Shown: positions 6,525-31,299 of the stretch, in pieces | How positions within the stretch are numbered: the stretch's first letter is position 1 | Layout of the letters: each line of letters starts with the position of its first letter | Source of the DNA: Firmicutes bacterium HGW-Firmicutes-14 | Lineage (GTDB): Bacteria > Bacillota > Thermincolia > Thermincolales > UBA2595 | DNA length: 64,000 nt | NCBI GenBank assembly: GCA_002840275.1 | Contig: PHAB01000012.1 | Coordinates: 48,678 to 112,677 of the forward strand | Direction of reading: 5' to 3' | Position numbers and translations under genes: made by a program | Notes under the pieces: generated by a model | Databases searched by the model: none | What the model saw: only the letters and a program-made list of their open reading frames with translations | What the model was told of the DNA's origin: nothing

Positions 6525-6545
6525 TCTTTTAGATTATTCGCACAT

Positions 6546-6580: not shown

Positions 6581-6698
6581 ACGGTTTCTGGTTTCATTGT
6601 TTTTACCCTGTCAAAATCCATGGGCAGGAGTTTTGGCCGCAAACATAGAATCTTGTCTAACCAAAAGTAAATCTGAACTTTAATGGGAGGACAGCATT

Positions 6699-8378: not shown

Positions 8379-8379
8379 G

Positions 8380-10209: not shown

Positions 10210-10210
10210 G

Positions 10211-11938: not shown

Positions 11939-11974
11939 TCAAATCACTCCTGCGTATATTTTAAGGGCTAAATG

Positions 11975-12406
11975 TTACATGCGGTTTAGGTTGTTCCGCA
12001 TGCATATCAGGAATCGCTTCATTAAAACCTTTTCTTCTTGGGTGAATCCTTCGAAAGATTCCTCATATATGGTATTCAGGACCTGTTTGACCTTAGGACG
12101 GAATTTTTCTGCCCGTTCTGTCAGAAACACCCTGGAAACCCGTAGATCCTCAGGGTCCGGTTTGCGTTCAACCCAACCGGCCTTTTCCATCCTTTTCAAC
12201 ATAACAGTTATTGTAGCAGGCTTAAGCCCCAGCATTTCTGCAAATTCTTTTTGGCTGCGCCCGTCTTTTTTCCAGAGCATGAATAAAATAGGCGGCTGGC
12301 CGGGATAGATTCCCAATTCTCCCAGCAGTTTCTGGGTCCGGTGATGATGGAGCCTCATTACTTGGGCAAACAAAAATTCCAATGATTCATTGTCATAAAA
12401 ATTCAT
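11975..12406 (-). CDS. MarR family transcriptional regulator
   Basis: This 143-residue winged-helix protein has a recognition region reading KEFAEMLGLKPATITVMLKRMEKAGWVERK. The wing follows (KPDPEDLRVSRVFLTERA) and a C-terminal dimerisation helix completes it. It is the first gene of the operon with the two ABC exporter halves and most likely represses that operon until a ligand binds. A candidate operator overlaps its own promoter region. Confidence 0.9.
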   Translation of the reverse strand: MNFYDNESLEFLFAQVMRLHHHRTQKLLGELGIYPGQPPILFMLWKKDGRSQKEFAEMLGLKPATITVMLKRMEKAGWVERKPDPEDLRVSRVFLTERAEKFRPKVKQVLNTIYEESFEGFTQEEKVLMKRFLICMRNNLNRM

Positions 12407-15789: not shown

Positions 15790-17001
15790 TCAATTCAAGC
15801 CGTAGGCTTGCATCAGCACCCATATAGGGTGCTCTGTTTTTATCCCAGAGCCGTGACGAATCTGAACCTGGCACCCCCCGCATTCGGTTATTACGGATTG
15901 AAATTCACCGCTGGCAACACCCTGCCGGACCCGATTAAACAACGGGTTCCCAATCTGCATGGCTGTGTTGTATTTTTCTTTTTTGAAGCCATAGCTGCCG
16001 GATAATCCGCAGCATCCTTGATCCAGTTCGGCCACCTGCACCCCTGGAATCAACCGCAATAGGCGAACCGATGGAGTTCCGATGCCTTGAGCCTTTAAAT
16101 GGCAAGAGGCATGATATCCCAGGGATACTTGAACCTCATTAAAATTTTCCCGGAGCTCATTTTGTTCGTGAAGCTGCCAAAGAAACTCAAACAAATCGTA
16201 GGTTTGCAGTTCAGATTCAGGTTCTTCGAAACTTGGACATTCTTTTAACGCTAAGCCGCAACTGGTGCATCCGGTGATTAAGGGTATGCCGGCACGCATA
16301 AATGGGTCCATCAGAGCCAGATTTTTTTTCGCAATTTCTTTGGCCTCGTTTAGATAGCCGTTGCCTTCAAGGGGAGTTCCGCAACAATGAAAAGAAGGAA
16401 CAATCACCTCATATCCATTGTGTTCCAATACCTTTACTATAGCCTGACCTGTCGGTGGGTCATTATACGTGACAAAACAACCGGGAAAATATACAACCTG
16501 TTTCTTGCTTTGCCGACCTGTTTCAGTTCCCTTAAACTTTGGGTTATAGGCAGGAAGCGGTGCCTCACTGCTAATTCCCAGCACTTGTGCCAATATTTTT
16601 CGAACCGGAGGCGCCTTAAGCAGCACGTTTGTCAAATTGGGAGAAATCATCGCCAGTCTGCCCAGATATTCAGCCCGTCCAAACAGGTAATCCCGAATGC
16701 TGAATTGCAGAGTTTTGCCACCCCCGGATATCTTTGCGTCTTCCTGAGCTCTCGTAATCATTTCAGTAATTTTTACGCCTGATGGGCAGGTAATCTCACA
16801 GGTTTTACATTTCGAACAATAATTCAACAGTGTTGTGCCAATCTGTAAACCCTCAAGCCGAAAACGCTCGGCATCCGGTCCCAGGATTTTCGGTCCGGGG
16901 AACAAGGGGTTCACAGCAGCGACGGGGCATAGGGCTGTACACGCGCTGCACTTGATACAGGCATCTAGATTTTCTGCCTTGTTCGGCTCAAAACTCATCA
17001 T
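15790..17001 (-). CDS. glpC: anaerobic glycerol-3-phosphate dehydrogenase subunit C
   Basis: This encodes about 403 residues. The ATG at 17001 is chosen because a GAAAGGGGG ribosome binding site stands just before it, while the longer open frame runs back into glpB. Two 4Fe-4S ferredoxin clusters occur at the N terminus (CIKCSACTALCP and CSKCKTCEITCP). They are followed by two CCG-type cysteine-rich domains (HCCGTPL and GCCGLSG). GlpC is the membrane-associated iron-sulfur subunit that passes electrons from GlpAB to the quinone pool. It is the last gene of glpA-glpB-glpC, and its start overlaps the end region of glpB closely. Confidence 0.88.
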   Translation of the reverse strand: MMSFEPNKAENLDACIKCSACTALCPVAAVNPLFPGPKILGPDAERFRLEGLQIGTTLLNYCSKCKTCEITCPSGVKITEMITRAQEDAKISGGGKTLQFSIRDYLFGRAEYLGRLAMISPNLTNVLLKAPPVRKILAQVLGISSEAPLPAYNPKFKGTETGRQSKKQVVYFPGCFVTYNDPPTGQAIVKVLEHNGYEVIVPSFHCCGTPLEGNGYLNEAKEIAKKNLALMDPFMRAGIPLITGCTSCGLALKECPSFEEPESELQTYDLFEFLWQLHEQNELRENFNEVQVSLGYHASCHLKAQGIGTPSVRLLRLIPGVQVAELDQGCCGLSGSYGFKKEKYNTAMQIGNPLFNRVRQGVASGEFQSVITECGGCQVQIRHGSGIKTEHPIWVLMQAYGLN

Positions 17002-17014
17002 ATATGCCCCCTTT

Positions 17015-18229
17015 CTAGAGCTTCTCTCCAGCAAACCACCCCGTAGCGAGGGAAACGCCTCCGCCACAGTTGTCGGTCCATGGATCCCAATGGGCCAGCA
17101 TACGGCCGATAACCCGAAGATTCTCAAAGAGAACCTCTTTATTACCCGGGCCGGTTGGCCGAAGTTCACTGTCAACTTCAATGCCCATGTGCGCATAGGG
17201 TTGCTCTCCCAGAAACTCGCTATTTGTCAACTCTGCAGGAACATAGAGGGGGAGCCCCAGTACTGTTTCTTGTGCGGCCTCAGGTGTGACCTCAATTCCT
17301 CCGCCAAAAATCCCTCCGGTGGCCAGGATAAAGGAACGGGCAGAAAAAGCCGTGTATCTGCCTTTACTTTTGACAATGGCTTTGTCGCACAGTTTGCCCT
17401 GTAACTCAATTCTCTGTACCCCGGTTCCAAACAGTAATTCTCCGCCCAATGACTTAAACTTTTGCTTTAAGGCACAGTAAAGGTTATGCCCGCTGGCAGA
17501 AGGCGGAAAGGCGGTCATTTCAATCACCGGAAACGGTGTTTCAGACAATATTTCCTTCAGGGGGTCAGAAAACGCTGTTGCGATTCCGGGAAATAAGACA
17601 GCTGTCTCGTTCTTTTTACTGGATACTTCACCGTCAAAAATCATGGTCAGGCAATTCAGCACCCGTTTTAACTCTGAAATCCCCGGTCCTGACTGCCAAT
17701 ATTTCGCATACTCCATTCCTGTGACCGATTTTCCAATGGCGTGCCAGGACTCAAATGCACCGACGCGGAATGGGTATACCTCGACAACACATTGTGGATA
17801 GGACCTTTCCAAATTAGTTTTGATAATCTCGGGGAAAAAATCTTTCATTCCGTCCGGGGCCATAAGCACAATCCGTCTCGCATCCTGCAGGCTCTCTGCG
17901 TTCTGCCCATAGGGCACAATACTTGCTTTTCTGGGGGAACCCAAGGGTGTGAGCAAGTTTTGAGTAACCCCCCACTTACCCTGATAATCTGGAAAAAGCC
18001 TTTGGAAGTAATCCATGCCGGCACGTATCGACGTTTCTCCAAGTAGAGCGTAAGGGTGGTTTTCTTGGTTTAGTAACTGTCCGGCATCCCCGAAATCCAA
18101 AGCGCCTGAACTGTAGGTCAGACTGCCTACCCCTTCGGAGATAATCAAGATGTGTTTACCTCTTTCCGAGGCTCGGATTCCTGCCAGGAGACCCGCCAGT
18201 CCGCCGCCGATAATAATGCCATCCCACAT
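17015..18229 (-). CDS. glpB: anaerobic glycerol-3-phosphate dehydrogenase subunit B
   Basis: This 404-residue flavoprotein has an N-terminal FAD-binding Rossmann motif, GGGLAGLLAGIRASERG. It continues with a GALDFGD segment, and a second nucleotide-binding element near the C terminus (GGGVSLATGW) ends the protein. This is the pattern of GlpB, the FMN/FAD subunit that joins GlpA to GlpC. It lies 45 bases after glpA and is followed within about 15 bases by glpC, so all three are co-transcribed. Confidence 0.88.
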   Translation of the reverse strand: MWDGIIIGGGLAGLLAGIRASERGKHILIISEGVGSLTYSSGALDFGDAGQLLNQENHPYALLGETSIRAGMDYFQRLFPDYQGKWGVTQNLLTPLGSPRKASIVPYGQNAESLQDARRIVLMAPDGMKDFFPEIIKTNLERSYPQCVVEVYPFRVGAFESWHAIGKSVTGMEYAKYWQSGPGISELKRVLNCLTMIFDGEVSSKKNETAVLFPGIATAFSDPLKEILSETPFPVIEMTAFPPSASGHNLYCALKQKFKSLGGELLFGTGVQRIELQGKLCDKAIVKSKGRYTAFSARSFILATGGIFGGGIEVTPEAAQETVLGLPLYVPAELTNSEFLGEQPYAHMGIEVDSELRPTGPGNKEVLFENLRVIGRMLAHWDPWTDNCGGGVSLATGWFAGEKL

Positions 18230-18274
18230 GGTAAATCCCCCTCATTAACCCTAATTACCTCTGATTATTAACCT

Positions 18275-19900
18275 CTAACCTCTAACCTGCAGTATACTGG
18301 CATATATGGCTCGCGTTAACTCCGTTTCACGTAACTGCTGCCCCCAAAGGATCGGCCTAATACCTTTCCAACGTTGATTCAAAAAGTCTCTTAACTCGTC
18401 CTCGATGGCATCATATTTTTCTTGTCTCTTCCATAACAATGGTAGAGCCCTATACGTGCAGTAGGCTCCCTGACATGTCCCCATTCCTAACCGTGTCTTG
18501 CGCCGGATATCCGCCAAATGGTGGGTGTCCTCATCGGCAGCTGTTTTTTCAACCTCAGCCATGCTCACCATTTCACATTCGCAGAGCATTTGCCCTTTAC
18601 GCGGATCTCGCTGAATCTCCCCCAAAACACTCTCCGTATCTTCTTGCAGCCGTTCCAGCATTTTTCCCACAGGAGCATAAGGCAATAACTGGGCTGCTTT
18701 TTTCCATAGGTTTTCCGGGATTTCAGGTAGCAGGTCTTCTGTGGCTGTGCGGCAGGGGGTCATATTGCCAAGCTTTTCAGCTACCCAGTCCGAAACCTTT
18801 TCAGCCATCAGCCGATAGGTGGTAAACTTTCCACCCACAATACTTATAAATCCCTGAACACCATTATGTACCCCGTGGTCGATTAAGACGAAAGACCGGC
18901 TGACATTCCGTCCTTCTTCCTTGTTTATACCAGGAACATTTACACCAGGAACATCGTGGTCCTCCCGGTGGAGTGGTCTTACACCGGAAAAGGCCCGAAT
19001 AACGCGGTATTTCGTTAAATTCGGCAGCACCTGTTCGCCTATTTGTAAAAGTTTTTTGACTTCTTCCTCATTAGGATCGTTCTCTTGTGGAGAATCCACG
19101 AATTGAGAGGTTGTGCCCAGAATGGTAATAGTCTCATGAGGCACAAAGATATCCCCGTCACCCGAGGGACGGAGGCGATTAATCACGCGTTGAAAAAGCC
19201 GCTGGTTAAAAGCCAGCAGGGTACCCTTATCACAAATAACATCTAACGGAATATCGATTGACCCCGCGACAAGAGATGCCCATGCGCCGGCAGCGTTAAC
19301 CACAATATCACAACCCACCATGATCTCTTCCCCATTCAAAAGGTTCTTGGTCACCACACCGACAACCCGCTCCTTTTCCATAACCAGCCGTTCCACTTGA
19401 TGATAGGTCTTATATTGCCCACCGTAACGTCTGGCGGATTTGGCATTGGCCCAGACAATCTTAAAGCCATCTACGGTGGCATCAGGCACTTCGAAGACTC
19501 GCAGCACACTTTTGCTCATTAGCGGTTCTTTCCTATATGCCTCAGAAGGCGAGATCTCACGTATGGGAATATGTGCCTCAGCACAAGCCTTAATCCATTG
19601 TTCAACATAATCAGGAGGGTCATCCTGTGTTTGGACAAACCAACCTCCCGTATTGGAAATACAGTGAGGGGCAATTTTTTTCAAAATAAGATTTTCATCA
19701 ATACATTCAGTGGCTGACTCAGGGTCTTTTACGGCATAACGCGCCCCGCTGTGTAATAGCCCGTGAAAACGTGAACTGGTCCCATGGGCCAGATCCCCCT
19801 GTTCCAGCAGTAAGGCCGAGACGCCCCGCATACTTAAATCTCGCAAAATGCCAACCCCGGTTGCGCCACCCCCGATTATTACAACTTGATAGTCTGACAT
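18275..19900 (-). CDS. glpA: anaerobic glycerol-3-phosphate dehydrogenase subunit A
   Basis: This encodes 541 residues. The FAD motif GGGATGVGILRDLSMRG is at the N terminus and the DAO-type oxidase core contains R-P-L-H-R-E-D and G-G-K-F-T-T-Y-R-L motifs. The C-terminal BFD-like [2Fe-2S] domain has cysteines in MLCECEM and GTCQGAYCTYR. The enzyme oxidises sn-glycerol 3-phosphate to dihydroxyacetone phosphate. The length and added BFD domain fit the anaerobic GlpA form rather than aerobic GlpD. It heads the glpABC operon behind a leader terminator. Confidence 0.93.
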   Translation of the reverse strand: MSDYQVVIIGGGATGVGILRDLSMRGVSALLLEQGDLAHGTSSRFHGLLHSGARYAVKDPESATECIDENLILKKIAPHCISNTGGWFVQTQDDPPDYVEQWIKACAEAHIPIREISPSEAYRKEPLMSKSVLRVFEVPDATVDGFKIVWANAKSARRYGGQYKTYHQVERLVMEKERVVGVVTKNLLNGEEIMVGCDIVVNAAGAWASLVAGSIDIPLDVICDKGTLLAFNQRLFQRVINRLRPSGDGDIFVPHETITILGTTSQFVDSPQENDPNEEEVKKLLQIGEQVLPNLTKYRVIRAFSGVRPLHREDHDVPGVNVPGINKEEGRNVSRSFVLIDHGVHNGVQGFISIVGGKFTTYRLMAEKVSDWVAEKLGNMTPCRTATEDLLPEIPENLWKKAAQLLPYAPVGKMLERLQEDTESVLGEIQRDPRKGQMLCECEMVSMAEVEKTAADEDTHHLADIRRKTRLGMGTCQGAYCTYRALPLLWKRQEKYDAIEDELRDFLNQRWKGIRPILWGQQLRETELTRAIYASILQVRG

Positions 19901-19948
19901 ATTCGCCCCTCCCCGTGTTAAGTTCTTAACAAATTTCCGTAAGGTCTG

Positions 19949-19999
19949 AAAAAAAGAAAGCCATTAGTGGGCCGTATAGAACGGTCCACCAATGGCTTC
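19949..19999 (-). terminator. leader terminator of glpABC, probable GlpP antitermination target
   Basis: On the minus strand a stem of about 19 bp (19958-19975 with 19981-19999, two G-U pairs) is followed by seven T. It lies between glpP and glpA, about 50 bases before the glpA start. GlpP is known to bind leader RNA and prevent termination when glycerol 3-phosphate is present, so this hairpin is its likely target (inference from position). Confidence 0.75.
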
Positions 20000-20081
20000 T
20001 CTTATTCTCTAAGCCTTGATTATCAAGTTTTGCCAGGCAATCAGTTACCGGTATTGCCATCATTATAAGCCAAAATTCACT

Positions 20082-20678
20082 TTAGGTCAAATGTAAATTC
20101 CACAAATTCCTCCGACTTGATGTTACGGCCGTCAGCCCATTATCCAACGCTTTATGAACATCCTCTTCCGTGCGGAGTAATCCCCCGCCCAGAATACTTA
20201 AAGCCGTCGCCTTATGCAATTCATCAATGGCAAACTTTGGCACACTGGCGGGCATGATTTCTATGGCATCCGGCGACATTTGTTTAATAACCTTCAAACC
20301 AGTGCGAATTGCTTCCGAATCAACCAAAAACAAACGCTGAACTGTTAACATCTTGTTTTCTTTGGCATATCGCAGCAACTGCCATTTTACAGAAACAATC
20401 CCTTCAAGCCCAAGTCGCTTTAAGTAACGGACCCCTGATTCATCTTTACCGATTCCATTAAGCAGATCAATATGTGCCAGCAAAAATTTCTCCGGGTACT
20501 TCCGCCGGACCTTTAACATTTCTTCCAGGCCGTTAAGATCTCCACCCAGCAGGATGATAACAGAAACCCAGGGCATGTTAAATACTTCTCCCAAATCCTC
20601 AGGGTGTTTGACAGCCGGTACAATCTTGCTCTTAATCAGAGCATTGTTGAAAGCATCTCTGTTTTTCAAAGTAATCAT
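20082..20678 (-). CDS. glpP: glycerol uptake operon antiterminator
   Basis: This 198-residue protein of the GlpP family has a TIM-barrel-like fold. It shows motifs HIDLLNGIGKDESG, EIMPASVPK and a final GGGLLRTEEDVHKALDNGLTAVTSS phosphate-binding region. GlpP senses glycerol 3-phosphate and binds leader mRNA. It precedes glpABC on the same strand, with a terminator hairpin between, so its target is in the same operon. Confidence 0.9.
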   Translation of the reverse strand: MITLKNRDAFNNALIKSKIVPAVKHPEDLGEVFNMPWVSVIILLGGDLNGLEEMLKVRRKYPEKFLLAHIDLLNGIGKDESGVRYLKRLGLEGIVSVKWQLLRYAKENKMLTVQRLFLVDSEAIRTGLKVIKQMSPDAIEIMPASVPKFAIDELHKATALSILGGGLLRTEEDVHKALDNGLTAVTSSRRNLWNLHLT

Positions 20679-20764: not shown

Positions 20765-20793
20765 TTGACAGCTTTCAATTTTGATATTATACT
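20765..20793 (+). promoter_or_regulatory. sigma-A promoter of the SorC-regulator gene
   Basis: TTGACA (20765-20770) and TATACT (20788-20793) are separated by 17 bases, a near-consensus promoter about 95 bases before the regulator start. A pair of direct repeats follows immediately. Confidence 0.8.
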
Positions 20794-20804: not shown

Positions 20805-20840
20805 TGAGAAAATGCACAGTTAAGTGAGCAAATGCACAGT
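20805..20840 (+). repeat. two direct repeats, candidate SorC operator
   Basis: TGAGAAAATGCACAGT (20805-20820) and TGAGCAAATGCACAGT (20825-20840) are identical at 15 of 16 positions. Their starts are 20 bases apart, so they face the same side of the helix. They lie just downstream of the promoter, where binding would block transcription. The likely binder is the regulator encoded directly downstream. Confidence 0.65.
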
Positions 20841-20887
20841 CGTGCTAACCAAAATTTTAAAAAGTCATGTTGGGGGTGATAATGGTT

Positions 20888-21817
20888 ATGGATTACTTGT
20901 TAAAAGTGGCCAGGTTATATTACCAGGAAAACATGAATCAACAGGAAATTGCTGATTGTCTAAATATTTCCCGGGTGAAAGTTTACAGGCTGCTGATGAA
21001 GGCGCGGGAAGAAGGAATTGTAAAGATTGAATTGCACTTTCCCCCTCAGGACTTCAGTGAGCTTGAAATCAAAATTGAGAGAAGTTTTGGTATCAGACAA
21101 TGTATTATTGTTCCCACATCAGATTCAATGGATAATGTCTACAGCGCTTTTGCAAATGCACTGATTTCAGTCATCGACAGGTACTATAAAAAAGGAATGA
21201 GTGTGGGCGTCGGATGGGGACAGACTATTAAGGGTACTGTCGAAAAAATGAATTTCACCAAAAAATATAATATGAAAATATTACCGGTAATTGGTGGATC
21301 GGGGTTAGTTTACGATGATGATGATATTCATGCTAATTCCATTGTTTCTTTACTTGCCGGCAAATCAGGAGCAACCGGCTACATCTTAAATTGTCCTGCC
21401 ATTATAGATACCCAGGCCAGCAAAGAGGTATTTTTACAGGAAAGTATTATCAGGAAAATCGTTGATCAGTTTGAAAGCTTAGATTTGGTAATCGTACCTA
21501 TCGGATACATAGGTCCTGATATAACAATATATAAGACAAGAGATATTATGGCTGAAGATATCGAATACTTCCAGAGTTTGGGTATTGTTGGTGATATCAA
21601 TTCCAATTTCATCGATGATAACGGAAATTTAGTACCCAACAAAATCCAAGACCGGATTATCAATGTGACTTTAGAATCGCTGAAAAAAATAAATAACACC
21701 ATAGCAATCTGCAATGGTGAAAAAAAGATTGTGGCCACACGGGCGGCGCTTAAAACCGGTGTGATTGACACACTGATCACTGATACCAGTATTGCGGATA
21801 AACTATTGTCACCCTAA
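20888..21817 (+). CDS. SorC/DeoR family sugar-binding transcriptional regulator
   Basis: This encodes about 309 residues. The ATG at 20888 fits best with the GGGGGTGAT ribosome binding site ending at 20880. Residues 1-50 are a helix-turn-helix (MNQQEIADCLNISRVKVYRLLMKAREEGIV). The rest is a SorC-type sugar-phosphate effector domain with a GVGWGQTI motif. SorC regulators respond to phosphorylated sugars or polyols, which fits the sugar kinase gene that follows 43 bases later. It probably controls the kinase-transporter-methyltransferase run and itself. Confidence 0.88.
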   Translation: MDYLLKVARLYYQENMNQQEIADCLNISRVKVYRLLMKAREEGIVKIELHFPPQDFSELEIKIERSFGIRQCIIVPTSDSMDNVYSAFANALISVIDRYYKKGMSVGVGWGQTIKGTVEKMNFTKKYNMKILPVIGGSGLVYDDDDIHANSIVSLLAGKSGATGYILNCPAIIDTQASKEVFLQESIIRKIVDQFESLDLVIVPIGYIGPDITIYKTRDIMAEDIEYFQSLGIVGDINSNFIDDNGNLVPNKIQDRIINVTLESLKKINNTIAICNGEKKIVATRAALKTGVIDTLITDTSIADKLLSP

Positions 21818-21860
21818 AAGGAATCCTCAACAAAATTAATATATCAAGGAGGTTTTTCAA

Positions 21861-23411
21861 ATGAGTGGGCATCTAACTTTGGGAATTGACATCGGGACAA
21901 CCAATGTAAAGGCCTGTATTCTTGACACAACTACAGGTAAAGTAATTGCTTCAGGTTTTCAGCCACACCCATTGTTCATTCCAAAACCAGGATATGCCGA
22001 GCAGGAAGGGGACAACTATTGGCAGGCAGTGGTATCAGCCATTAAGCAGTGTCTCCAGCAAGGCCCTTCCGCAGAGGATATAGCTGCCATTGGCCTGTCT
22101 GGTTTAGTTGGGGTTACATTACCAATCAGCAGGGACGGCAGACCGGTACGTCCCGGTATGATCTGGATGGATGCCAGGTCTGAAGCCGAGTGCCAGGAAA
22201 TACGCGAAAGAGTTGGCGAGGACAAGATTAATTATAATAACGGAAACAGGATTGCTCCCTGGTTTATTGAACCAAAAGCCCTTTGGATGAAAAAACATGA
22301 ACCTGAACTTTTTGAAAAAACCTATAAATTCTTATCTCCCTCCGGTTATTGTACATATAGGTTATCAGGAGAATTTACAATTAATACGGGAGATGCAGGA
22401 TTATTTTACCCATATGATTATCAGAACGAGAGATGGAATCCGGAGATAGCTGATGCGATCGGCATTCCCATGGAGAAATACCCCAGGATTTACCGGTCTC
22501 ATGAGGTTGTCGGGGAAGTAACTGCTGAGGCTGCAGCAGAAACCGGGCTTAAACAGGGGACTAAAGTGGTTGCCGGGGGAACAGATATCAGCTCGGCAGC
22601 CCTGGGGAGCGGAGTCACAGTTGCCGGCCAAGCCTTTTACTCCATGGGCACGGGATCTAACATCGGCATCATGATTCCCACGGAACAGAGGGTAGAAGAA
22701 TATAGAATATTAAAATGGCCTCACGTCTTGCCGGGTTTAACCATGTTTGACGCGCCAATGGCGTTTACCGGCGCTTCACTTAAGTGGTTTACCGATACAT
22801 TTGGGGCTAATGAAAGAGCAATGGCAAACCAAACAGGTTTAAGCGAGTATTCCTTACTGACTATGCAGGCAGATAAGACCAGGCCCGGTGCAAACGGTCT
22901 TTTATATCTCCCGTACTTGGGGAACACCTTATCTCCAAACTGGAATTCAACTTCCAAAGGCGTTTTTTTCGGTGTAACTCTTAGTACAACCCGGGCCCAT
23001 ATGATCAGGGCTGTGATCGAAGGGGTTGCCTTTGATATTTATTCTAATGTGAAAATTGCCTTAGGAGCAGGAGTAAAAATCGATAAACTGATTTTAAACG
23101 GTGGTCCGACCAAAAGCCCCTTCTGGAATCATATAACCGCGAATGTAGTCAATATTCCTCTGGAAACTACCAACATAGATGAAGCTGCTCCATTGGGAGA
23201 TGCTATTCTGGCGGCAACCGGAGCGAATCTTTATGATAACCCGACAGATCCTCTGAAAGACATTGTCACAACCACAGGGACCATCGAGCCTGACGCTAAA
23301 ACCCATGAGATGTACGAAGATTTCTATCACATTTGGCGGAGAGTTTATAAAAATCTTATTGATGAGATGGAAGACCTGCATCATCTTTTGTACAAATATC
23401 ATGTTGAATAA
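21861..23411 (+). CDS. FGGY family carbohydrate kinase
   Basis: This encodes 516 residues. The ATP-binding N terminus reads GIDIGTTNVKACILD. The FGGY signature region contains M-G-T-G-S-N-I-G and a C-terminal LILNGGPTKSPFWNHI that fits the family adenosine motif. Overall it resembles xylulokinase-like members that phosphorylate sugars or polyols. The gene follows the SorC regulator and precedes a UroD-type methyltransferase and a ribose-type ABC transporter. Its substrate is therefore probably the molecule imported by that transporter, perhaps after or before demethylation (inference). Confidence 0.88.
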   Translation: MSGHLTLGIDIGTTNVKACILDTTTGKVIASGFQPHPLFIPKPGYAEQEGDNYWQAVVSAIKQCLQQGPSAEDIAAIGLSGLVGVTLPISRDGRPVRPGMIWMDARSEAECQEIRERVGEDKINYNNGNRIAPWFIEPKALWMKKHEPELFEKTYKFLSPSGYCTYRLSGEFTINTGDAGLFYPYDYQNERWNPEIADAIGIPMEKYPRIYRSHEVVGEVTAEAAAETGLKQGTKVVAGGTDISSAALGSGVTVAGQAFYSMGTGSNIGIMIPTEQRVEEYRILKWPHVLPGLTMFDAPMAFTGASLKWFTDTFGANERAMANQTGLSEYSLLTMQADKTRPGANGLLYLPYLGNTLSPNWNSTSKGVFFGVTLSTTRAHMIRAVIEGVAFDIYSNVKIALGAGVKIDKLILNGGPTKSPFWNHITANVVNIPLETTNIDEAAPLGDAILAATGANLYDNPTDPLKDIVTTTGTIEPDAKTHEMYEDFYHIWRRVYKNLIDEMEDLHHLLYKYHVE

Positions 23412-23458
23412 GCCATTAATTATATAAAAAAAACGGCTTTTGGGCGGAGGAAATTAAT

Positions 23459-24517
23459 GTGAATGCAAAAGAGAGAGTTCTAATGTCACTCAATCACCAG
23501 GAACCTGACAGATGTCCGATAAATTTTCGGGCAACTGATGCAATTGTCGATATTGTGTGCAAGCATTACAAAAAAGATTATTACGGATTGCTTGAGCACT
23601 TAAATGTTGATTTCCGGGAGGTTTTTGCGGATTATGCCGGTCCAAAGTTTAAAAAACTGGACGATGGGACTCAACTTGATATTTGGGGGGTTGGTCGTCA
23701 GGAACTAATCACAGAATTAAGCCGGGATGTATATGTTAATCATTCCCCATTGAGCCACGCCGAGACGGTTGAAGAGGTCAGAAAATATAATTGGCCTTCA
23801 GTAGACCTGTTTGATTTTAGCCAAATGGAAAGTAAGTGTGACCGGTTTGCCGGCTATGCGATTTCAACTCCGGGCATTCATGCTGAAGGATACCATGGTG
23901 TGTTTCACTTATTGACCTATTTGTTTGGTATGGAAAAAGCCATGCTGGATTTGGCGTTGAATGAAGAGATGGTCCAAGAGGCTATAAAACATATAAACAA
24001 ATTCTTGGTTGACTATTATGAAAAGATGTTCCAGCAAGCAAATGGGAAGATTGACTTCTTATTTTACAAAGACGATTTTGGCTCCCAAAACAGTCAGCTT
24101 ATTAGCAGAGAGATGTTTCGGCAATTTTTCGGACCGGGTCTGAAGGAACTGGTGGATCTGGCCAATAGTTACGGGGCTGCCTTGATTTTACATTCCTGTG
24201 GGAGTGTCATTAACCTGATCCCGGATTTCATTGATTTAGGAGTTAGAGTATTAGATCCAATACAGACATCGGCCAAAGACATGGATATCTCTGTATTAAA
24301 AGAAAAGTTCGGCGATAAATTAACCTTTCATGGTGCAATAGATACTCAAGAAGTTTTGCCTGCGAGCAGCCCGGCGGAGATTAGAGAAATAGTTAAAAAT
24401 ACAATCGATATTTTAGGTAAAGGAGGAGGGTATTTCTTTAGTCCGTCCCATAGGATTCAACAGGATACCCCATTGGAAAATATCATTGCTATGTATGAGA
24501 CGGTCAATAACTATTGA
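23459..24517 (+). CDS. UroD-family (MtaA-like) corrinoid methyltransferase
   Basis: This encodes 352 residues from a GTG start after GGCGGAGG. It has the uroporphyrinogen-decarboxylase fold of MtaA/CmuA-type methyltransferases. The likely zinc ligands are His and Cys in LILHSCGS near residue 240. A C-terminal SPSHRIQQDTP segment closes the barrel, typical of UroD-like methyltransferases rather than true haem enzymes. It probably moves a methyl group between a substrate and the corrinoid protein encoded downstream. Its place between a sugar kinase and a sugar-type ABC transporter suggests a methoxylated sugar or polyol as substrate (inference). Confidence 0.75.
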   Translation: MNAKERVLMSLNHQEPDRCPINFRATDAIVDIVCKHYKKDYYGLLEHLNVDFREVFADYAGPKFKKLDDGTQLDIWGVGRQELITELSRDVYVNHSPLSHAETVEEVRKYNWPSVDLFDFSQMESKCDRFAGYAISTPGIHAEGYHGVFHLLTYLFGMEKAMLDLALNEEMVQEAIKHINKFLVDYYEKMFQQANGKIDFLFYKDDFGSQNSQLISREMFRQFFGPGLKELVDLANSYGAALILHSCGSVINLIPDFIDLGVRVLDPIQTSAKDMDISVLKEKFGDKLTFHGAIDTQEVLPASSPAEIREIVKNTIDILGKGGGYFFSPSHRIQQDTPLENIIAMYETVNNY

Positions 24518-24664
24518 TCAAGCTCAGAGGGCGAGAGGGTTTTTTATAAATAGATGATAACAAATGTGTGCAGAAAGGGGGCGTTGGATAATAAGGCTTG
24601 CGTCTTAACAGTCGGTTGCATGTAGTATGTGGGTCTAAGCACAATTAAAGGAGGCTATTTGTAG

Positions 24665-26086
24665 ATGAGAAAAATTACCAAATTGTTATGTTTTTTACTC
24701 ATTGTTATGATGGTGTTCACTGTTGTGGGTTGCGGAGGCGGTGAAAAAGAGCCTGCAAAAACCGGGGATAGCCAGAATAATTCAGGACAACCATCTTCTA
24801 CCGGGAATGAGAAAATTGACGCATTATACGCAGAAGTTGCAAATCTTCAGGGAGAAGATGCCCTCAAATTCTTCGAAGGCCTTAAAGACAAAGGGCTGAA
24901 CGATGCTGAAATACTGCAGTTTTTTATAGACCTTCCTTTATCACAGGCAAATGCACAGATCGCAAAAATATACAAAGATGAAGGATTTGAAATGTACGGC
25001 AAATCCTACCCCAAAGGTGAAACCTATAATGACTTTCAGTGGTCCAAAGGTTCAGGCACAAAAATTACAGGACCTTACAGTAAAAATGACTTAAAACTGC
25101 CCTTTACTGATTATGTGGCCCTTGATGAAGGAACAGTCGGCGATGCCAGCAAGAAATATAAAATTGGCGTTGTGTTCCATGGGTTCAGCCATCCCTGGCT
25201 GATAAACTGGGCTGATGCAGCTAAATGGGAAGCTGACAGGCATTCAAATGTTGAATTAAATGTTCAGGATGCAGAATTTGACAACAATAAATGGGCCTCA
25301 ATTATGGATTCATTTATTTCTCAAAAAGTAGACGGTATCCTTGTTTGGCCGATGGTTGAGGCTCCCACAGGACCGCCGGTTGACAGGGCTTTGGAAGCAG
25401 GCATACCGGTGGTAAGTGTTGACAGAACCTCCGGTTCCAAAGAAATTACATCCAGAATTACCGGTAACTTTCCGGCCAATGGAGCCCAGGCAGGTATGTA
25501 CGCTATATGGAAACTGGCCCAGGAAGGGGACTTAAACGCTAAAGCAGTAATGCTCAGGAAGCCATTGGGAAGTACTGCTGATGCTGTAAGAACCGGTCAT
25601 TTCTTAAAAGTATTAAGTTATTTCCCGGGTATCGAAATACTTAAATCTTATCATGACACCGATAACAGGGAAGAAGCATTTACCAACGCCCAATCAGCGC
25701 TTCAGGCATACCCCGAAATTGATATCTTCTTTGGCACCGGTGACCATGAAGCACTTGCTGCCCTGGAGGCTGCCAAGATGGCTAACAGACTTAACAGCAG
25801 AAAAGACGGTAAGAAGATAATGTTCTTAAGTATAGACGATTCCAAGGAAGCTGTAACCCAGGTTAAGGATGGATTGTTTGAAGTAAATACTCCTTATACT
25901 CCGCTGATCTCAGATATTGGTATGCGGGTACTCCTTAATATTGTCACCAAATCAGCTGAAATGCCTCAAGATGTAATTACACCCAATATTCCAATGGTCA
26001 CTCAAAAAGGTGATGTTATCTTCGGCATGCAGACACAAACTCCTGATCAATGGTATGAGTATACTTTTGGACCGGCACTGAAATAA
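24665..26086 (+). CDS. sugar-type ABC transporter substrate-binding lipoprotein
   Basis: This encodes 473 residues, starting after AAAGGAGG. The lipoprotein signal ends VVGC near residue 23. A helical extension covers about residues 45-120, which is longer than in classical RbsB. It is followed by a periplasmic-binding-protein type 1 domain with KIGVVFHGFSHPW and DGILVWPMVE strands. This is the outer capture subunit for the permease/ATPase genes downstream. A stable hairpin after the gene probably raises its mRNA level. The ligand cannot be named from sequence. Confidence 0.88.
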   Translation: MRKITKLLCFLLIVMMVFTVVGCGGGEKEPAKTGDSQNNSGQPSSTGNEKIDALYAEVANLQGEDALKFFEGLKDKGLNDAEILQFFIDLPLSQANAQIAKIYKDEGFEMYGKSYPKGETYNDFQWSKGSGTKITGPYSKNDLKLPFTDYVALDEGTVGDASKKYKIGVVFHGFSHPWLINWADAAKWEADRHSNVELNVQDAEFDNNKWASIMDSFISQKVDGILVWPMVEAPTGPPVDRALEAGIPVVSVDRTSGSKEITSRITGNFPANGAQAGMYAIWKLAQEGDLNAKAVMLRKPLGSTADAVRTGHFLKVLSYFPGIEILKSYHDTDNREEAFTNAQSALQAYPEIDIFFGTGDHEALAALEAAKMANRLNSRKDGKKIMFLSIDDSKEAVTQVKDGLFEVNTPYTPLISDIGMRVLLNIVTKSAEMPQDVITPNIPMVTQKGDVIFGMQTQTPDQWYEYTFGPALK

Positions 26087-26103
26087 ACTTAACCATCTCC
26101 GTT

Positions 26104-26138
26104 TCTCTCTCTGCAGGCTGACAGCCTGCAGAGAGAGA
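26104..26138 (+). promoter_or_regulatory. intercistronic mRNA-stabilising hairpin
   Basis: A perfect 16-bp stem (26104-26119 with 26123-26138) with a three-base loop GAC lies between the binding-protein and permease genes. There is no T-run after it. Such hairpins commonly protect the binding-protein mRNA so that it outnumbers the membrane subunits. Confidence 0.6.
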
Positions 26139-26186
26139 TTATCGGACTGCCACTCACTAAAACCTTTTTACTTAAGGAGAGTCGAA

Positions 26187-27209
26187 ATGGCTAGTGATAC
26201 TGCCTCATTTAATGGAAAATCTATAATTTCAATAAAGTTTATCAAAGATAATATGCTTGTCTTTATTCTGTTTTTAGAGTTAATAATGGGTGTGATTCTT
26301 TCACCGGTGTTCTTGGGTAAAAGCAATATTTATAGTATACTTATCAATTTGACAATTTTTGGTTTGCTGGCTATTGGACAGTCTTTAGTGATGCTCGTTA
26401 AGGAAATTGATTTATCAGTAGGCGCCATAATGGCCTTTGGCCCGATTGCCGCCATAGCACTAAGTAAAAAGATCTTGGCTGTTTCCGGGACGGAAATAAT
26501 CGTAGGCGGTAATTACGTAGTCGATGGACTGGCTCTCATCGTTGTGTTAGTGCTTTTCATCAGCGCTTTAATTGGCGTACTAAACGGAGTTATCAGGGTA
26601 AAAGCGCAAGTTCCTTCATTAATTGTCACATTAGGCATGCTGTATGTTCTTAGTGGTTTATCCTATATCCTCTCGGGAGGGTATTCTCTTTATCTGACCA
26701 ATTTGGAAGGGGCAAAATGGCTGGGCAACACTAAGCTTGCCAGCATTCCGGTTAATTTTATTTTGTTTTTAACTGTTGGGGTCTTGGTTATCTTAGTTTT
26801 AAAATATACGAAAGTTGGTCATAGGATTTATTCCACAGGGGGTAATGAAAAGGCTGCCATATATTCCGGTATTAACACAAAGTTCTGGAAGGTTATAGCT
26901 TTTGGATTGAGCGGATTATGTGCGGGTATTTCCGCCCTGGTATATAGTTCTCGTTTAGAATCGGTAGAAACAATTCAAGGAAGCGGTTATGAACTGATAT
27001 CTATAGCAATTGCCGTTATTGGCGGCATAACCCTGGAAGGCGGCAGGGGTAAGATTTTTGGAACAATTATAGCAAGCGCTATATTATGTATTATGTTAAA
27101 TATATTATCACTGGTAGGTTTAATAGCGTGGTATAAAACGATTATTGTCGGTTTGATTATAATTGGTGCTGCATCCCAGCATGCTTTTTCCCGCAGAACA
27201 ACGGAATAG
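26187..27209 (+). CDS. ribose-type ABC transporter permease (first copy)
   Basis: This encodes 340 residues with eight to ten membrane helices. The conserved RbsC-type segments IGQSLVMLVKEIDLSVGAIMA and GGITLEGGRGKIFGT are present, together with the EAA-like GGNEKAAIYSGI loop. It follows the binding protein and precedes the ATPase by 34 bases. A second, different permease comes after the ATPase, so the channel is probably a heterodimer. The frame ends in TAG. Confidence 0.9.
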   Translation: MASDTASFNGKSIISIKFIKDNMLVFILFLELIMGVILSPVFLGKSNIYSILINLTIFGLLAIGQSLVMLVKEIDLSVGAIMAFGPIAAIALSKKILAVSGTEIIVGGNYVVDGLALIVVLVLFISALIGVLNGVIRVKAQVPSLIVTLGMLYVLSGLSYILSGGYSLYLTNLEGAKWLGNTKLASIPVNFILFLTVGVLVILVLKYTKVGHRIYSTGGNEKAAIYSGINTKFWKVIAFGLSGLCAGISALVYSSRLESVETIQGSGYELISIAIAVIGGITLEGGRGKIFGTIIASAILCIMLNILSLVGLIAWYKTIIVGLIIIGAASQHAFSRRTTE

Positions 27210-27243
27210 TTGTCCAGGGCTACAAGGAAGGTGAAAGATATTA

Positions 27244-28773
27244 ATGCAGGAGCCTTTGTTATTTCTAAAAAACATTCATAAACAATTTCCGGGAGTCAAG
27301 GCCTTAAGAGGCGTGGACCTTACCCTTGAGAAGGGGAAAATTGTTTCCCTGGTAGGGACTAACGGGGCGGGTAAATCCACCCTGTCGAATATTATTGCCG
27401 GTATTTATCCTCCTGATAGTGGTGAAATTTTTATTGAAGGTAAAAGTGTAACCATATCAGATCCGAAAGTTGCAGAACAGCTTGGTGTGGGCATTGTACA
27501 TCAGGAACCCACTTTGGCGCTTAATATGACAGTTGTGGAAAACATTTTTCTAAATAAAGAACTTACCAGAAACCGGATTTTACTGGACCTTAAAAAGATG
27601 AAACAAGAGAGTGAGAAAGTACTGGAATTCCTGGGTTTTCAAATTAACGTGGATAAGAAAGTTGAAGAGTTAACATTAGTAGAAAAAGAAGTGGTGGCAA
27701 TTGCCCAGGCCATGTTAGTTAAACCAAGAATTTTGATCCTTGATGAAGTTACTGCTCCGCTGAATAAGGGCGAAGTCGATCACCTCTTTAAAATTATCAA
27801 GGACCTGAGAAATAACGGGATGGGTATTATTTTTATCGGACACAAACTCCAGGAAATAATTGAGATATCGGATTCTATCATGGTATTTAGAGATGGTAAA
27901 AACGTTGGCGAACTGATTCCATCTGAAAAGTTGTCAGAAAAAGAGGTCATAGCTTTAATGTTGGGTGTAACCCTCAATGAAGACCTGGAGGCGGGCGAAA
28001 AAGCATCGGAATCCGAGCAGAGAGAGGAAGTCCTAAATCTGATAAACCTTTCAAAACAGGGGTTATATGAGAACATAAATTTTACCCTGTATAAAGGAGA
28101 AGCAGTTGGTTTTGCCGGACTCAAAGGCTCCGGAATTACGGAGTTATTTCAATCACTGCAGGGAATCATTACCTTTGATGACGGTGAAATGTATGTCAAA
28201 ACCAGACGTGTTAAATTCAAGAACCCCAAGGATGGAATCGATGCCGGAATAGGAATGGTTACCAATGATAGGCAAAAGGAAGGGCTGGCTTTAACTCTTG
28301 ATGTTAAGGAGAATATTTCAGTAAGCTCTCTTAAGTATTTGCTTAACAAATTGAAACTTATCGATACTAAATTATTAAAAGATAAAGCAGAAAAATATGT
28401 TCAGGCTTTATCTATTAAAACCCCTTCCATAAACCAGTTCGTACAAAACTTATCCGGGGGTAATCAGCAAAAGATTGTTATTGCCAAATGGCTGTTAAAA
28501 AATCTGGATATAATCCTTGTTGACGAACCAACCAGAGGAGTTGACGTAAAAGCGAAAAACGAGATATACAAACTCCTTCTTAATGAAAAAAATAACGGTA
28601 AGAGTTTATTAGTTGCATCCCCGGAAATAAGAGAATTATTAAATATATGTGATAGGATTCTAATCGTTATCGGTGGCAGAATTGTTGCTGAAGTACATCG
28701 AAACACTAAAGAATTTAATGAGGAAGACATCCTCAGCATAATTCATTCATCTCACCATTACAATACTGCTTGA
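27244..28773 (+). CDS. ribose-type ABC transporter ATPase with two ATP-binding domains
   Basis: This encodes 509 residues and is built like RbsA/MglA. Domain 1 has Walker A GTNGAGKST and Walker B ILILDEVTAPL, but its signature reads LTLVEKEVVAIAQ, which departs from LSGGQ as in many RbsA proteins. Domain 2 has a degenerate Walker A (GLKGSGITEL), signature LSGGNQQKIVIA and Walker B IILVDEPTRGVD. It drives uptake of the ligand bound by the upstream lipoprotein. It is flanked by two permease genes on one transcript. Confidence 0.92.
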   Translation: MQEPLLFLKNIHKQFPGVKALRGVDLTLEKGKIVSLVGTNGAGKSTLSNIIAGIYPPDSGEIFIEGKSVTISDPKVAEQLGVGIVHQEPTLALNMTVVENIFLNKELTRNRILLDLKKMKQESEKVLEFLGFQINVDKKVEELTLVEKEVVAIAQAMLVKPRILILDEVTAPLNKGEVDHLFKIIKDLRNNGMGIIFIGHKLQEIIEISDSIMVFRDGKNVGELIPSEKLSEKEVIALMLGVTLNEDLEAGEKASESEQREEVLNLINLSKQGLYENINFTLYKGEAVGFAGLKGSGITELFQSLQGIITFDDGEMYVKTRRVKFKNPKDGIDAGIGMVTNDRQKEGLALTLDVKENISVSSLKYLLNKLKLIDTKLLKDKAEKYVQALSIKTPSINQFVQNLSGGNQQKIVIAKWLLKNLDIILVDEPTRGVDVKAKNEIYKLLLNEKNNGKSLLVASPEIRELLNICDRILIVIGGRIVAEVHRNTKEFNEEDILSIIHSSHHYNTA

Positions 28774-28808
28774 TATTGTAGGTTCATTAACGGGAAAGGG
28801 GTTATGAC

Positions 28809-29786
28809 GTGGAAGACATGGTGATTGCCAATGAAATGAACAAAAATAATTTAAGGCAGGCCCTTTTGAAAAACCATACCTTTATTTTGTTCATTATTAT
28901 GGCATGTGTAATGATTATTGGCAGTATTTTTGTTCCTTCTCTCATGCAAAAAGATAACTTATTAAATGTGTTAAGGTTAGCTTCAATAGTCGGTTTAGCA
29001 GCCATTGGGTCTACAGTGGTTTTACTGGTAGGAGAGATTGATTTATCCATCGGTTCCATAATGTCGCTGTCTCTTGTCACAGGCGGGCTCATGGTTGGAT
29101 ATGGATCGGTCCCGGCGTTGACAGTAACATGCCTTACCGGAATAATCCTTGGAATCGTCAATGGAGTGTTCGTTACTAAGTTGAAGATCAACTCATTAAT
29201 GGTCACACTGGGAACTATGTCAGTATTTGGCGGACTTGCAAACGTAGCCACCAGGGGACAATCTATTTTTCTCTATGATTCACCTCTATATTTATGGTTA
29301 GGGCGAGGGTACATCGGCGGTATACCGGTTCCAGTCATTATATTTCTTTCAGTTGGAATTATACTTTCATTATTATTGAGGTTTACAAAAACCGGAAAGG
29401 AAATCTACTTTACCGGGGCAAACAAAAGAGCGGCATGGATTTCCGGTATTAATATTAACAAAATTAAAATCACCGCTTACGCGGTATCTGGTTTAACAGC
29501 TGCTTTGGCGGGACCTCTGTTGAGCAGCCAGACCAACAGGATTACTCCCATTCAGGGCGTGGGTTTTGAGTTGTCGGCAATTGCTGTGGCAGTCCTGGGT
29601 GGTACCTCTCTTAGCGGAGGAAAAGGAACTGTTATTGGTACAATTCTGGGAGCATTGACCTTCCAATTATTATTGAACATTTTAACTTTATCCGGTGTAG
29701 GTACTTATATGGAGCAAGTTCTTAAAGGATTTTTGCTAATTGTGATTGTCGTGGTTTATCAGGTTGTCGACAAACCCAGGGGATAA
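28809..29786 (+). CDS. ribose-type ABC transporter permease (second copy)
   Basis: This encodes 325 residues from a GTG start after AAAGGGG. Multiple membrane helices carry RbsC motifs AAIGSTVVLLVGEIDLSIGSIMS and AVAVLGGTSLSGGKGTVIGT. It is homologous to, but clearly diverged from, the permease upstream of the ATPase, so the pair should form the channel. It is directly followed by a corrinoid protein gene, which ties uptake to methyl transfer. Confidence 0.9.
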   Translation: MEDMVIANEMNKNNLRQALLKNHTFILFIIMACVMIIGSIFVPSLMQKDNLLNVLRLASIVGLAAIGSTVVLLVGEIDLSIGSIMSLSLVTGGLMVGYGSVPALTVTCLTGIILGIVNGVFVTKLKINSLMVTLGTMSVFGGLANVATRGQSIFLYDSPLYLWLGRGYIGGIPVPVIIFLSVGIILSLLLRFTKTGKEIYFTGANKRAAWISGININKIKITAYAVSGLTAALAGPLLSSQTNRITPIQGVGFELSAIAVAVLGGTSLSGGKGTVIGTILGALTFQLLLNILTLSGVGTYMEQVLKGFLLIVIVVVYQVVDKPRG

Positions 29787-29837
29787 CTGTTTTGTCACTA
29801 TAGATTCAGAAATATATTTAAAATGGGGAGGAAGAAC

Positions 29838-30488
29838 ATGAACGTCTTAGAAGAAATCAGAGATGCGGTTATTGACGGTAATGCAATAAAAGTCGGGGAA
29901 TTGTCCCAAAAGGCGATAGAAGAAGGCTGTACTGCTTCACAGATTCTTAATGACGGGCTTATTGCCGGGATGAATGTCATTGGTCCCAGGTTTAAAAACA
30001 ATGAAATCTTCATACCCGAAGTTCTAAAGAGCGCCCGGGCTATGCACACCGGTATGGATGTAATCAAGCCTCAAATAGTAAGTTCTAATATTCAGGAAAA
30101 GGGTATTATTCTTATCGGAACAGTTGCCGGTGACCTGCATGATATAGGTAAAAACATGGTCATTATGATGCTTGAAGGGTCTGGCTATAAGGTGATTGAC
30201 TTGGGCATTAATGTGGCAACAGACAAATTCGTCGAAGCAATTGAGCAGTACAAACCTCAAATTGTTGGACTGTCAGCATTACTTACCACCACCATGAAAC
30301 AAATGAAAAGCACCGTTGAAACCTTACTTACATTAGAATCACGGCCTAAAATTATTATTGGCGGCGCCCCGATAACTCAGAAGTTTTGTAATGAGATCGG
30401 TGCTGACGCCTACGCTGCGGATGCAGCAAGTGCCGCTGAAATCGCTAATATGTTGATGGAATCGAATGCTAAGGCAGCAGGCGCTTGA
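29838..30488 (+). CDS. corrinoid (methyl-B12 binding) protein
   Basis: This encodes about 216 residues. The ATG at 29838 is chosen because the GGGGAGGAA ribosome binding site stands at 29825-29833. Residues 1-90 are the helical cap domain. The cobalamin domain holds the base-off motif GDLHDIGKN, with the histidine that binds cobalt. A later GGAPIT segment completes the B12 pocket. It is the methyl shuttle between the UroD-type methyltransferase upstream and the MtrH-type methyltransferase 13 bases downstream. Confidence 0.93.
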   Translation: MNVLEEIRDAVIDGNAIKVGELSQKAIEEGCTASQILNDGLIAGMNVIGPRFKNNEIFIPEVLKSARAMHTGMDVIKPQIVSSNIQEKGIILIGTVAGDLHDIGKNMVIMMLEGSGYKVIDLGINVATDKFVEAIEQYKPQIVGLSALLTTTMKQMKSTVETLLTLESRPKIIIGGAPITQKFCNEIGADAYAADAASAAEIANMLMESNAKAAGA

Positions 30489-30501
30489 AAGGGGACAACA
30501 A

Positions 30502-31299
30502 ATGATAGTTGTAGGTGAATTAATTAATGCCAGCCGTAAGGCGGTTGGAGCAGCTATTGAAGCTCAGGATGCGGGTTACATACTGCAGGTTGCCAGGGAC
30601 CAGATGGAAGCCGGAGCAGATTATATCGATGTTAATGCCGGTATATTTGTAGATAAAGAAGGCGACTATGCAGAGTGGATGGTCCGGCTGATTCAGGAAA
30701 ACACTGACGCAGTTTGCTCCCTGGACAGTCCTGACCCCGAAGTACTTACCCAGGCTCTCAGGGTTCATCAGGGCACTGCCATGATTAATTCTATCTCCCT
30801 GGAAAAAGAGCGCTATGATGCAATCATTCCCATTGTTGCCGGTACCGGCCTGAAAGTTATAGGACTGTGTATGAGTGATGAAGGTATGCCTGTAACTAAA
30901 GAAGACCGTCTGAAAATTGCCGATAAGCTAATTAATGGTTTGGTCAAGAACAATGTTAAACTTGAAAACATTTTTATTGATCCCCTGGTACAGCCTGTTG
31001 CTACAGATCAGTCTTATGGAGCAGAGTTCCTGAATGCTATTGAGGGGATCATGACAGGCTATCCCGGAATTCATACTATATGCGGGCTTTCCAATATCTC
31101 TCATGGTTTACCTAACCGGAAATTACTAAATATGTCTTTTGCCATCATGGCTGTTGCCAAAGGGCTGGACGGTCTGATCATCAATCCTCTTGACAGGCAG
31201 ATAATGGCCGGTCTGACAGCTGCCGAAACATTGGCCGGCCGGGATGAATACTGTGAGAAATACTTGAGTGCCTTCCGGGCTGGAAGGTTTGAGCTCTAA
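30502..31299 (+). CDS. methyltetrahydrofolate:corrinoid methyltransferase (MtrH/MeTr type)
   Basis: This encodes 265 residues. The ATG at 30502 follows AAAGGGGA and gives the same N terminus (VVGELINASRKA) as the paralogue at 48012. It is a pterin-binding TIM barrel with YIDVNAGIF, CSLDSPDPEV and MINSISLEKERY segments typical of AcsE/MtvA/MtgA-like enzymes. It should pass methyl from the adjacent corrinoid protein to tetrahydrofolate. Its last 26 codons are repeated as a fragment at 50872-50955. It is the last gene of the run. Confidence 0.9.
   Translation: MIVVGELINASRKAVGAAIEAQDAGYILQVARDQMEAGADYIDVNAGIFVDKEGDYAEWMVRLIQENTDAVCSLDSPDPEVLTQALRVHQGTAMINSISLEKERYDAIIPIVAGTGLKVIGLCMSDEGMPVTKEDRLKIADKLINGLVKNNVKLENIFIDPLVQPVATDQSYGAEFLNAIEGIMTGYPGIHTICGLSNISHGLPNRKLLNMSFAIMAVAKGLDGLIINPLDRQIMAGLTAAETLAGRDEYCEKYLSAFRAGRFEL

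Follow-up and report, generated by a model that had tools for sequence, protein, structure and literature searches.

What is the function of a gene run in which a predicted complete corrinoid methyl-transfer chain is set among the genes for the import and phosphorylation of a sugar? The question is raised by nine genes of Firmicutes bacterium HGW-Firmicutes-14, a relative of Thermincola, which lie in a stretch of 64,000 nucleotides (contig PHAB01000012.1, positions 48,678 to 112,677), referred to here as the window, belonging to contig C23 of a genome of 3.65 Mb. The nine genes, all open, occupy the + strand from 20867 to 31299, at the place given in the first-pass annotation, and the open frames and Pfam matches bear out the gene order, the common strand and the short gaps which it described. 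The start at 20888 which it proposed is one of three in-frame ATGs.

20867..21817, + strand: SorC1, SorC-family regulator (Sugar-bind/SorC, PF04198, 2.8e-57); the ATGs at 20867, 20882 and 20888 are possible starts
21861..23411, + strand: FGGY1, FGGY carbohydrate kinase, xylulokinase-like (FGGY_N and FGGY_C, PF00370/PF02782; XylB model 352 bits, below the equivalog cut-off of 380)
23459..24517, + strand: UroD1, UroD-superfamily protein (URO-D), predicted methyl donor:corrinoid methyltransferase (MTI)
24665..26086, + strand: SBP1, CUT2 sugar-binding protein (Peripla_BP_4; lipoprotein signal recognised by eye; predicted helical N-terminal extension at about residues 49-160)
26187..27209, + strand: CUT2 permease A (BPD_transp_2, PF02653, 2.2e-37)
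27244..28773, + strand: CUT2 ATPase with two ABC domains (ABC_tran, PF00005, two stretches)
28809..29786, + strand: CUT2 permease B (BPD_transp_2, PF02653, 6e-40)
29823..30488, + strand: Corr1, corrinoid protein (B12-binding_2 and B12-binding, PF02607 and PF02310; DLHDIG motif at residue 104)
30466..31299, + strand: MtrH1, MtrH/MtvA-like pterin-binding methyltransferase, predicted MTII (Pterin_bind, PF00809; NF005719 319.9 bits, above the cut-off of 259); likelier start ATG 30502

The successive gaps measure 43, 47, 147, 100, 34, 35, 36 and -23 bases from 5' to 3', the last becoming +13 if MtrH1 starts at its likelier ATG.

The run probably serves to import and demethylate an O-methylated sugar or polyol. 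The compound would be taken up by the CUT2 importer and phosphorylated by FGGY1 before its demethylation by UroD1, which would move the methyl group to the cobalt of Corr1, and the MtrH-like enzyme would pass this group on to tetrahydrofolate, all in an oxygen-free process. The methyl group and the sugar would be used separately, the sugar phosphate entering central metabolism as pentulose phosphate or glycerol phosphate, the latter possibly served by the adjoining glp genes. The substrate class, the direction of demethylation and the order of the reactions are what we infer here from the gene families and their arrangement. The first-pass annotation had likewise proposed that a methylated sugar or polyol is imported and demethylated, its methyl group being transferred to tetrahydrofolate, and this part is the best-supported reading in view of three data sets presented below (a run in another phylum, a second cluster in the same genome and an exchange of the demethylase in Sinorhizobium), whereas its details concerning inositol and glycolysis were not supported.

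The importer comprises a Peripla_BP_4 binding protein with a ribose-binding fold, a double ABC ATPase and BPD_transp_2 permeases, as is typical of CUT2 systems. In SBP1, the ribose-binding fold is preceded by a conserved, mostly helical extension (residues 49-160), which is common to all 50 sequences aligned (the window protein and 49 of the 120 listed binding proteins). The methyl-transfer genes provide the set expected of a three-component corrinoid system, namely a UroD-superfamily protein, a free-standing corrinoid protein with the DxHxxG motif (DLHDIG) and a pterin-binding methyltransferase. Five matches to RACo-type reactivators (PF14574) were found in the genome, none of them in the run, together with two strong CdhD-family matches, which are the evidence used here for regarding the host as an acetogen.

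All nine genes are kept at 83-94% identity in one relative (locus L023, genome G006) and are also kept in a second (genome G005), where they are divided between two contig ends (L128 and L129); the stretch L024, likewise from G005, stops inside UroD1, the remainder of the set lying on L129, so that these loci stand for two relatives, not four. UroD1 is present in three of the nine genomes of the family. Since the nine genes are kept in both relatives and UroD1 in three of nine family genomes, the run is more than a chance adjacency; a search for the same gene order in other acetogens had been named as a check in the first-pass annotation. When 398 genomes sampled from the phylum were searched, UroD1 gave five matches at 1e-70, of which three show 86-100% identity and the other two 39%, and the orthologues of SBP1 (3/398) and of FGGY1 (3/398) were found in the same three genomes as the 86-100% matches. 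The closest named relatives of UroD1 among the loci kept (80 of the 201 confirmed stretches, some only 3 kb long) belong to two metagenome-assembled genomes of Thermincola ferriacetica (91% and 85%).

Outside the phylum, a genome of the Syntrophobacteraceae (L027) carries as one run a binding protein (73%), two permeases, an ATPase (58%), an FGGY kinase (74%), a corrinoid protein and a UroD-type protein (56%), preceded by a gene which by eye is GntR-like. The corrinoid protein, encoded directly 5' of UroD, has the DLHDIG motif and is 49% identical to Corr2, the counterpart of Corr1 in the second cluster described below. Four other genomes among the loci kept carry UroD1-type genes: corrinoid proteins occur in all four and MtrH-like proteins in two. 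In the protein database, 24 of the 92 listed UroD1-type clusters share the exact size of their longest contig with one of the 120 listed FGGY1-type clusters, versus a mean of 0.42 in a control in which the sizes were shifted by 1-50 bases, and nine of the 92 do so with one of the 120 listed binding-protein clusters; co-location is deduced here from the sizes of unread contigs alone, and the 24 include the contig of the window itself. The UroD1-type clusters (P0001-P0092, at least 50% identity over most of the length) are 92 of the 120 listed among 835 found, and the FGGY1 and SBP1 clusters are 120 listed of 1368 and 120 of 453, respectively; orthologues of FGGY1 or SBP1 are listed for Clostridium beijerinckii, Metabacillus, Mesorhizobium and Desulfosporosinus youngiae, among others. 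On this evidence, the core of the run travels together.

The UroD1 sequence bears on the order of the reactions. In an alignment of 77 of the 120 listed proteins, the 52 close sequences show fixed basic residues (R24, K204, R332, H146, and H150), unlike most of the 25 distant relatives, and some of these residues probably face the active site. Since they are specific to the UroD1 subfamily, they suggest that the substrate is phosphorylated and that the kinase may therefore act first, which appears to be the likelier order. The His-x-Cys pair of MtaA is conserved in UroD1, and MtaA (4ay7/4ay8) was the sole match of the UroD1 profile in the PDB, where a phmmer search with UroD1 gave no match at 1e-5. 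The VIA-align rows listed for UroD1 comprise chains of MtaA, UroD and the MetE type, along with a few others; no O-demethylase is among these rows, an absence which is uninformative as to membership. The search of plasmids with UroD1 returned six records, all distant.

As regards the substrate, the first-pass annotation had named O-methyl inositols, beside O-methyl hexoses and methyl glycosides, as candidates. The inositols we do not favor: the run contains no inositol gene, and the kinase belongs to the FGGY family, whereas that of the inositol route is of the PfkB type. A plain xylulokinase operon was also considered and set low, the XylB score of FGGY1 (TIGR01312) being below the equivalog cut-off (352 vs. 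380 bits).

A second cluster in the same genome (G000 contig C37, 283071-301265; L019 5072 to L020 5266) shows the same logic. FGGY_N is matched only twice in this genome, and the match outside the window lies on C37 beside UroD2, in the order UroD2, FGGY2, TIM, epimerase-like, GlpA-like, GlpB-like, DUF1667-type, SorC2, CUT1 importer, RpiB, transaldolase, Corr2, MtrH2 and DeoC (the labels GlpB, DUF1667 and CUT1 were assigned by eye). UroD2, Corr2, and MtrH2 are 35% (over aligned positions), 46% and 66% identical to the window copies, respectively. The enzyme types are presumably those of erythritol catabolism (EryA, EryB, EryC, EryD, EryH and EryI), to which the FGGY kinase, the Glp-type dehydrogenase, the epimerase-like protein, SorC, TIM and RpiB would correspond, the difference being the additional UroD2, Corr2, and MtrH2; the RpiB of C37 scores 149 bits with the erythrulose-phosphate isomerase model (cut-off 240). 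SorC2, UroD2 and FGGY2 recur together in a distant family (L127: 54%, 70%, and 71%, respectively) with a different, CUT2-like importer, and FGGY2 is present in 2 of 388 genomes. The presence in one genome of two diverged sets following the same logic argues against an accidental adjacency.

The importer and kinase also occur with a different type of demethylase. On two plasmids (L115/L116, from Sinorhizobium mexicanum and S. terangae), the records of which are unannotated in this region, so that the genes were read from the DNA, a binding protein (48%) and a kinase (67%) related to those of the window are present. On both, the genes run from a MocE-like ferredoxin through the binding protein, two permeases, the FGGY kinase, the ATPase, a MocD-like protein of the FA_desaturase family and a MocF-like reductase to a zinc alcohol dehydrogenase that resembles formaldehyde dehydrogenases. 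The scores obtained with the MocD, MocE and MocF proteins of Rhizobium lentis are 158, 93 and 280 bits in L115 and 156, 93, and 272 bits in L116. The R. lentis genes adjoin iolE, a Gfo/Idh/MocA gene, purU, a panB-like gene, and a pyridoxal phosphate-dependent aminotransferase-family gene, which we read as MocR-type. MocDEF removes an O-methyl group. Since a MocDEF-like set stands here beside the shared importer and kinase, the place taken by the corrinoid set in the anaerobes is occupied in these aerobes by what is likely an oxygen-dependent demethylase. The mocDEF genes are part of rhizopine catabolism, and the rhizopine model of 1998 names a ferredoxin oxygenase complex (both according to the part of PMC10107442 available to us).

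Could the sugar genes and the methyl-transfer genes be unrelated in function? A plain sugar or polyol would then be imported and phosphorylated, while the methyl-transfer genes would serve another donor (methanol, a methoxyarene, a methylated amine or thiol) and merely share the transcript. We consider this unlikely. Methyl-transfer genes are dense in this genome (20 corrinoid-domain matches, PF02607, and 16 UroD matches, PF01208), which makes an insertion into an unrelated operon possible, but UroD1 lies between the kinase and the binding protein and not at the end of the run, in L027 as well the kinase and importer genes share a single run with a corrinoid gene and UroD, and the Sinorhizobium plasmids pair the same importer and kinase with the MocDEF-like set instead.

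Several observations weigh against demethylation of an imported methyl sugar. In a six-frame recount of the 80 UroD-relative loci, a corrinoid gene was found within the fetched stretches at only four (L023, L027, L050 and L095) and MtrH at one, while CUT1 permeases were found at 16; the location of a UroD-type protein next to genes for sugars therefore does not in itself make it a corrinoid methyltransferase. At L025, L026 and L028, the surroundings of the UroD1-type genes (at least 50% identity) show no close relative of FGGY1 and no corrinoid gene, and MtrH is absent from the L027 run, MtrH-like genes being present elsewhere in that genome. No dehydrogenase, isomerase or aldolase was recognized within the nine genes. 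As regards Sinorhizobium, the alcohol dehydrogenase stays below the cut-off of the S-(hydroxymethyl)glutathione dehydrogenase model (470 vs. 544 bits). An alcohol dehydrogenase neighboring a methoxy-sugar locus for porphyran was shown not to detoxify formaldehyde, according to the part of PMC10033563 at hand. Three other contexts of the desaturase were read, one of which is a moc locus; in the second, from Rhizobium, a MocE-type set adjoins cobalamin and NAD genes, and in the third, from Ruegeria, to which the closest listed relatives outside these plasmids belong (40%), the genes are non-sugar ones (amino-acid transport and oxygenase genes).

The scarcity of corrinoid genes and the CUT1 permeases, together with the fold of UroD1, which ties with those of the UroD decarboxylases, speak for UroD1 being a member of the UroD/MetE barrel family with some other role in sugar-phosphate conversion, Corr1 and MtrH1 forming an appended pair which serves other methyltransferases. 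We nevertheless find this very unlikely in the case of UroD1 itself, given that the corrinoid gene directly precedes UroD in L027, that the chain lies inside the run in three genomes of the family, that all four of the other UroD1-type genomes have corrinoid proteins (MtrH-like in two) and that the MtaA His-x-Cys pair is kept. The UroD-like proteins of sugar clusters may form a wider, unexplained group. In locus L130 (genome G301, 5338-12336), the gene for a relative of UroD1 (37%) stands between a CUT1-like importer on its 5' side and a protein which by eye is GH4-like on its 3' side; no corrinoid gene was recognized near it, L130 and L135-L137 having had no six-frame recount, so that genes there may be overlooked.

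A SorC regulator, an FGGY kinase and a CUT2 importer are also the layout of lsr operons, and the LsrK, LsrR, LsrA, and LsrC models all match; an operon for uptake and processing of an autoinducer-2-like signal which the methyl genes would modify is nonetheless highly improbable, since all four scores are far under the equivalog cut-offs (LsrK 229 vs. 528, LsrR 121 vs. 486 and LsrA 359 vs. 586 bits), higher scores are obtained with other models, and neither LsrF nor LsrG is among the matches listed. Equally improbable is the reverse chain, in which methyl-tetrahydrofolate would methylate Corr1 and UroD1 would methylate the imported sugar: methyl transfer by corrinoid systems can in principle proceed either way, but the combination of an importer with a kinase is that of a catabolic operon, and the oxygenase-type set of the aerobic counterpart would only remove methyl groups.

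Other features lie upstream of the run or within it:

15790..20678, - strand: glpP-glpA with GlpB- and GlpC-like genes, divergent from the run (PF04309, G3P_antiterm; GlpA, TIGR03377, 683 bits, above the cut-off of 553; GlpB and GlpC by eye)
20765..20793, + strand: predicted sigma-70 promoter of the nine-gene run, TTGACA-17-TATACT (consensus scan; both hexamers recur at the corresponding position of L023 and L024)
20810..20840, + strand: direct repeat AAATGCACAGT downstream of the promoter (copies 20810-20820 and 20830-20840), possible SorC1 operator
26105..26137, + strand: perfect 15-bp hairpin in the gap between SBP1 and permease A (sequence and complement check)

The divergent glpP, glpA, and GlpB/GlpC-like genes are also present in L023 and are kept in L024. 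Their link to the nine-gene run is our inference. The first-pass annotation had the sugar backbone enter glycolysis; with these neighbors, entry as glycerol phosphate/dihydroxyacetone phosphate or as pentulose phosphate is as likely. The glpP-glpA pair itself (window 18275-20678, - strand) diverges from the run in each of the three genomes, although the genome has no FGGY kinase apart from the two in the methyl clusters; glycerol phosphate would then either be a product of FGGY1 or be taken up from outside.

Promoter-like sites are in no excess overall (33 vs. 32.8 in shuffles). L023 and L024 each retain the second copy of AAATGCACAGT with a single mismatch, while the first copy is not clearly kept; the repeat is a possible operator of SorC1. 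A similar hairpin exists at the same place in L023, and the element might possibly be involved in processing or attenuation. Further downstream, transposase-like open reading frames (IS630-like by eye; 34339-34974) lie between the run and two methylamine-methyltransferase-like genes, MttB-like (36555-38036) and MtbB-like (38072-39472) by eye, each broken by one in-frame TAG (at about residues 332 and 354), which we take to be the pattern expected of pyrrolysine-containing enzymes; three further TAG-interrupted cases occur near the start of the same contig (L021 5702, 7852, and 11964).

Among known systems, the closest in composition are the three-component O-demethylases (MtvB, OdmB and VdmB of acetogens, MtoB of archaea) and CdmBCA (chloromethane), which likewise consist of an MTI of the UroD superfamily, a free corrinoid protein, a pterin-binding MTII, and a separate activating enzyme. 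These act on methoxyarenes or haloalkanes (PMC13222342, part available), whereas the window chain sits in a sugar importer and kinase operon under SorC. The same part of that work on CdmB assigns both O-demethylases and dehalogenases to the UroD superfamily, with zinc not present in all members. UroD1 probably represents a subfamily distinct from these O-demethylases. Rhizopine catabolism (moc, mocDEF) also involves the uptake and use of a possibly O-methylated compound, an inositol-derived amine, and MocD/E/F-like genes stand beside the same importer and kinase in Sinorhizobium; it is based on an oxygenase and the inositol pathway, whereas the window run is oxygen-free, corrinoid-based and equipped with an FGGY kinase. 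In porphyran-degrading Flavobacteriia, a P450 acting on 6-O-methyl-D-galactose also strips the methyl group before the sugar is used, and unlike the window run, this system depends on oxygen, produces formaldehyde and has no corrinoid chain, as far as the part of PMC10033563 to hand goes. In the open-licence PMC literature, no paper was found joining "corrinoid protein" and "FGGY" and, among the papers listed, none on sugars with corrinoid chains, and the available part of PMC10418091 has no link to a sugar importer or FGGY kinase. The first-pass annotation had stated that known methyltransferase systems are not paired with a ribose-type importer and a sugar kinase.

The novelty probably lies in three-component corrinoid O-demethylation, already known as such, having been turned to carbohydrates. 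Methylated sugars and polyols occur commonly in plants, algae, and RNA, and the anaerobic corrinoid demethylases in the literature found act on methoxyarenes, methanol, amines and haloalkanes. We tentatively propose, as a possibility that falls somewhat short of an even chance, that anaerobes have a B12-dependent branch for carbohydrates, in which methoxy-sugars and methoxy-polyols, once taken up and phosphorylated, would lose their methyl groups in the sugar-phosphate form to dedicated UroD-type enzymes; the present host would run two such pathways, that of the window and one of the O-methyl-erythritol type on C37, and the shared core of importer and kinase would be served by a corrinoid enzyme in anaerobes or by a MocDEF-type oxygenase in aerobes. 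If this is true, the branch would be an unrecorded source of methyl groups for acetogenic and methylotrophic food webs, would account for part of the unassigned UroD-like proteins, and would provide a clean case of one catabolic core paired with either an oxygen-free or an oxygen-dependent demethylase.

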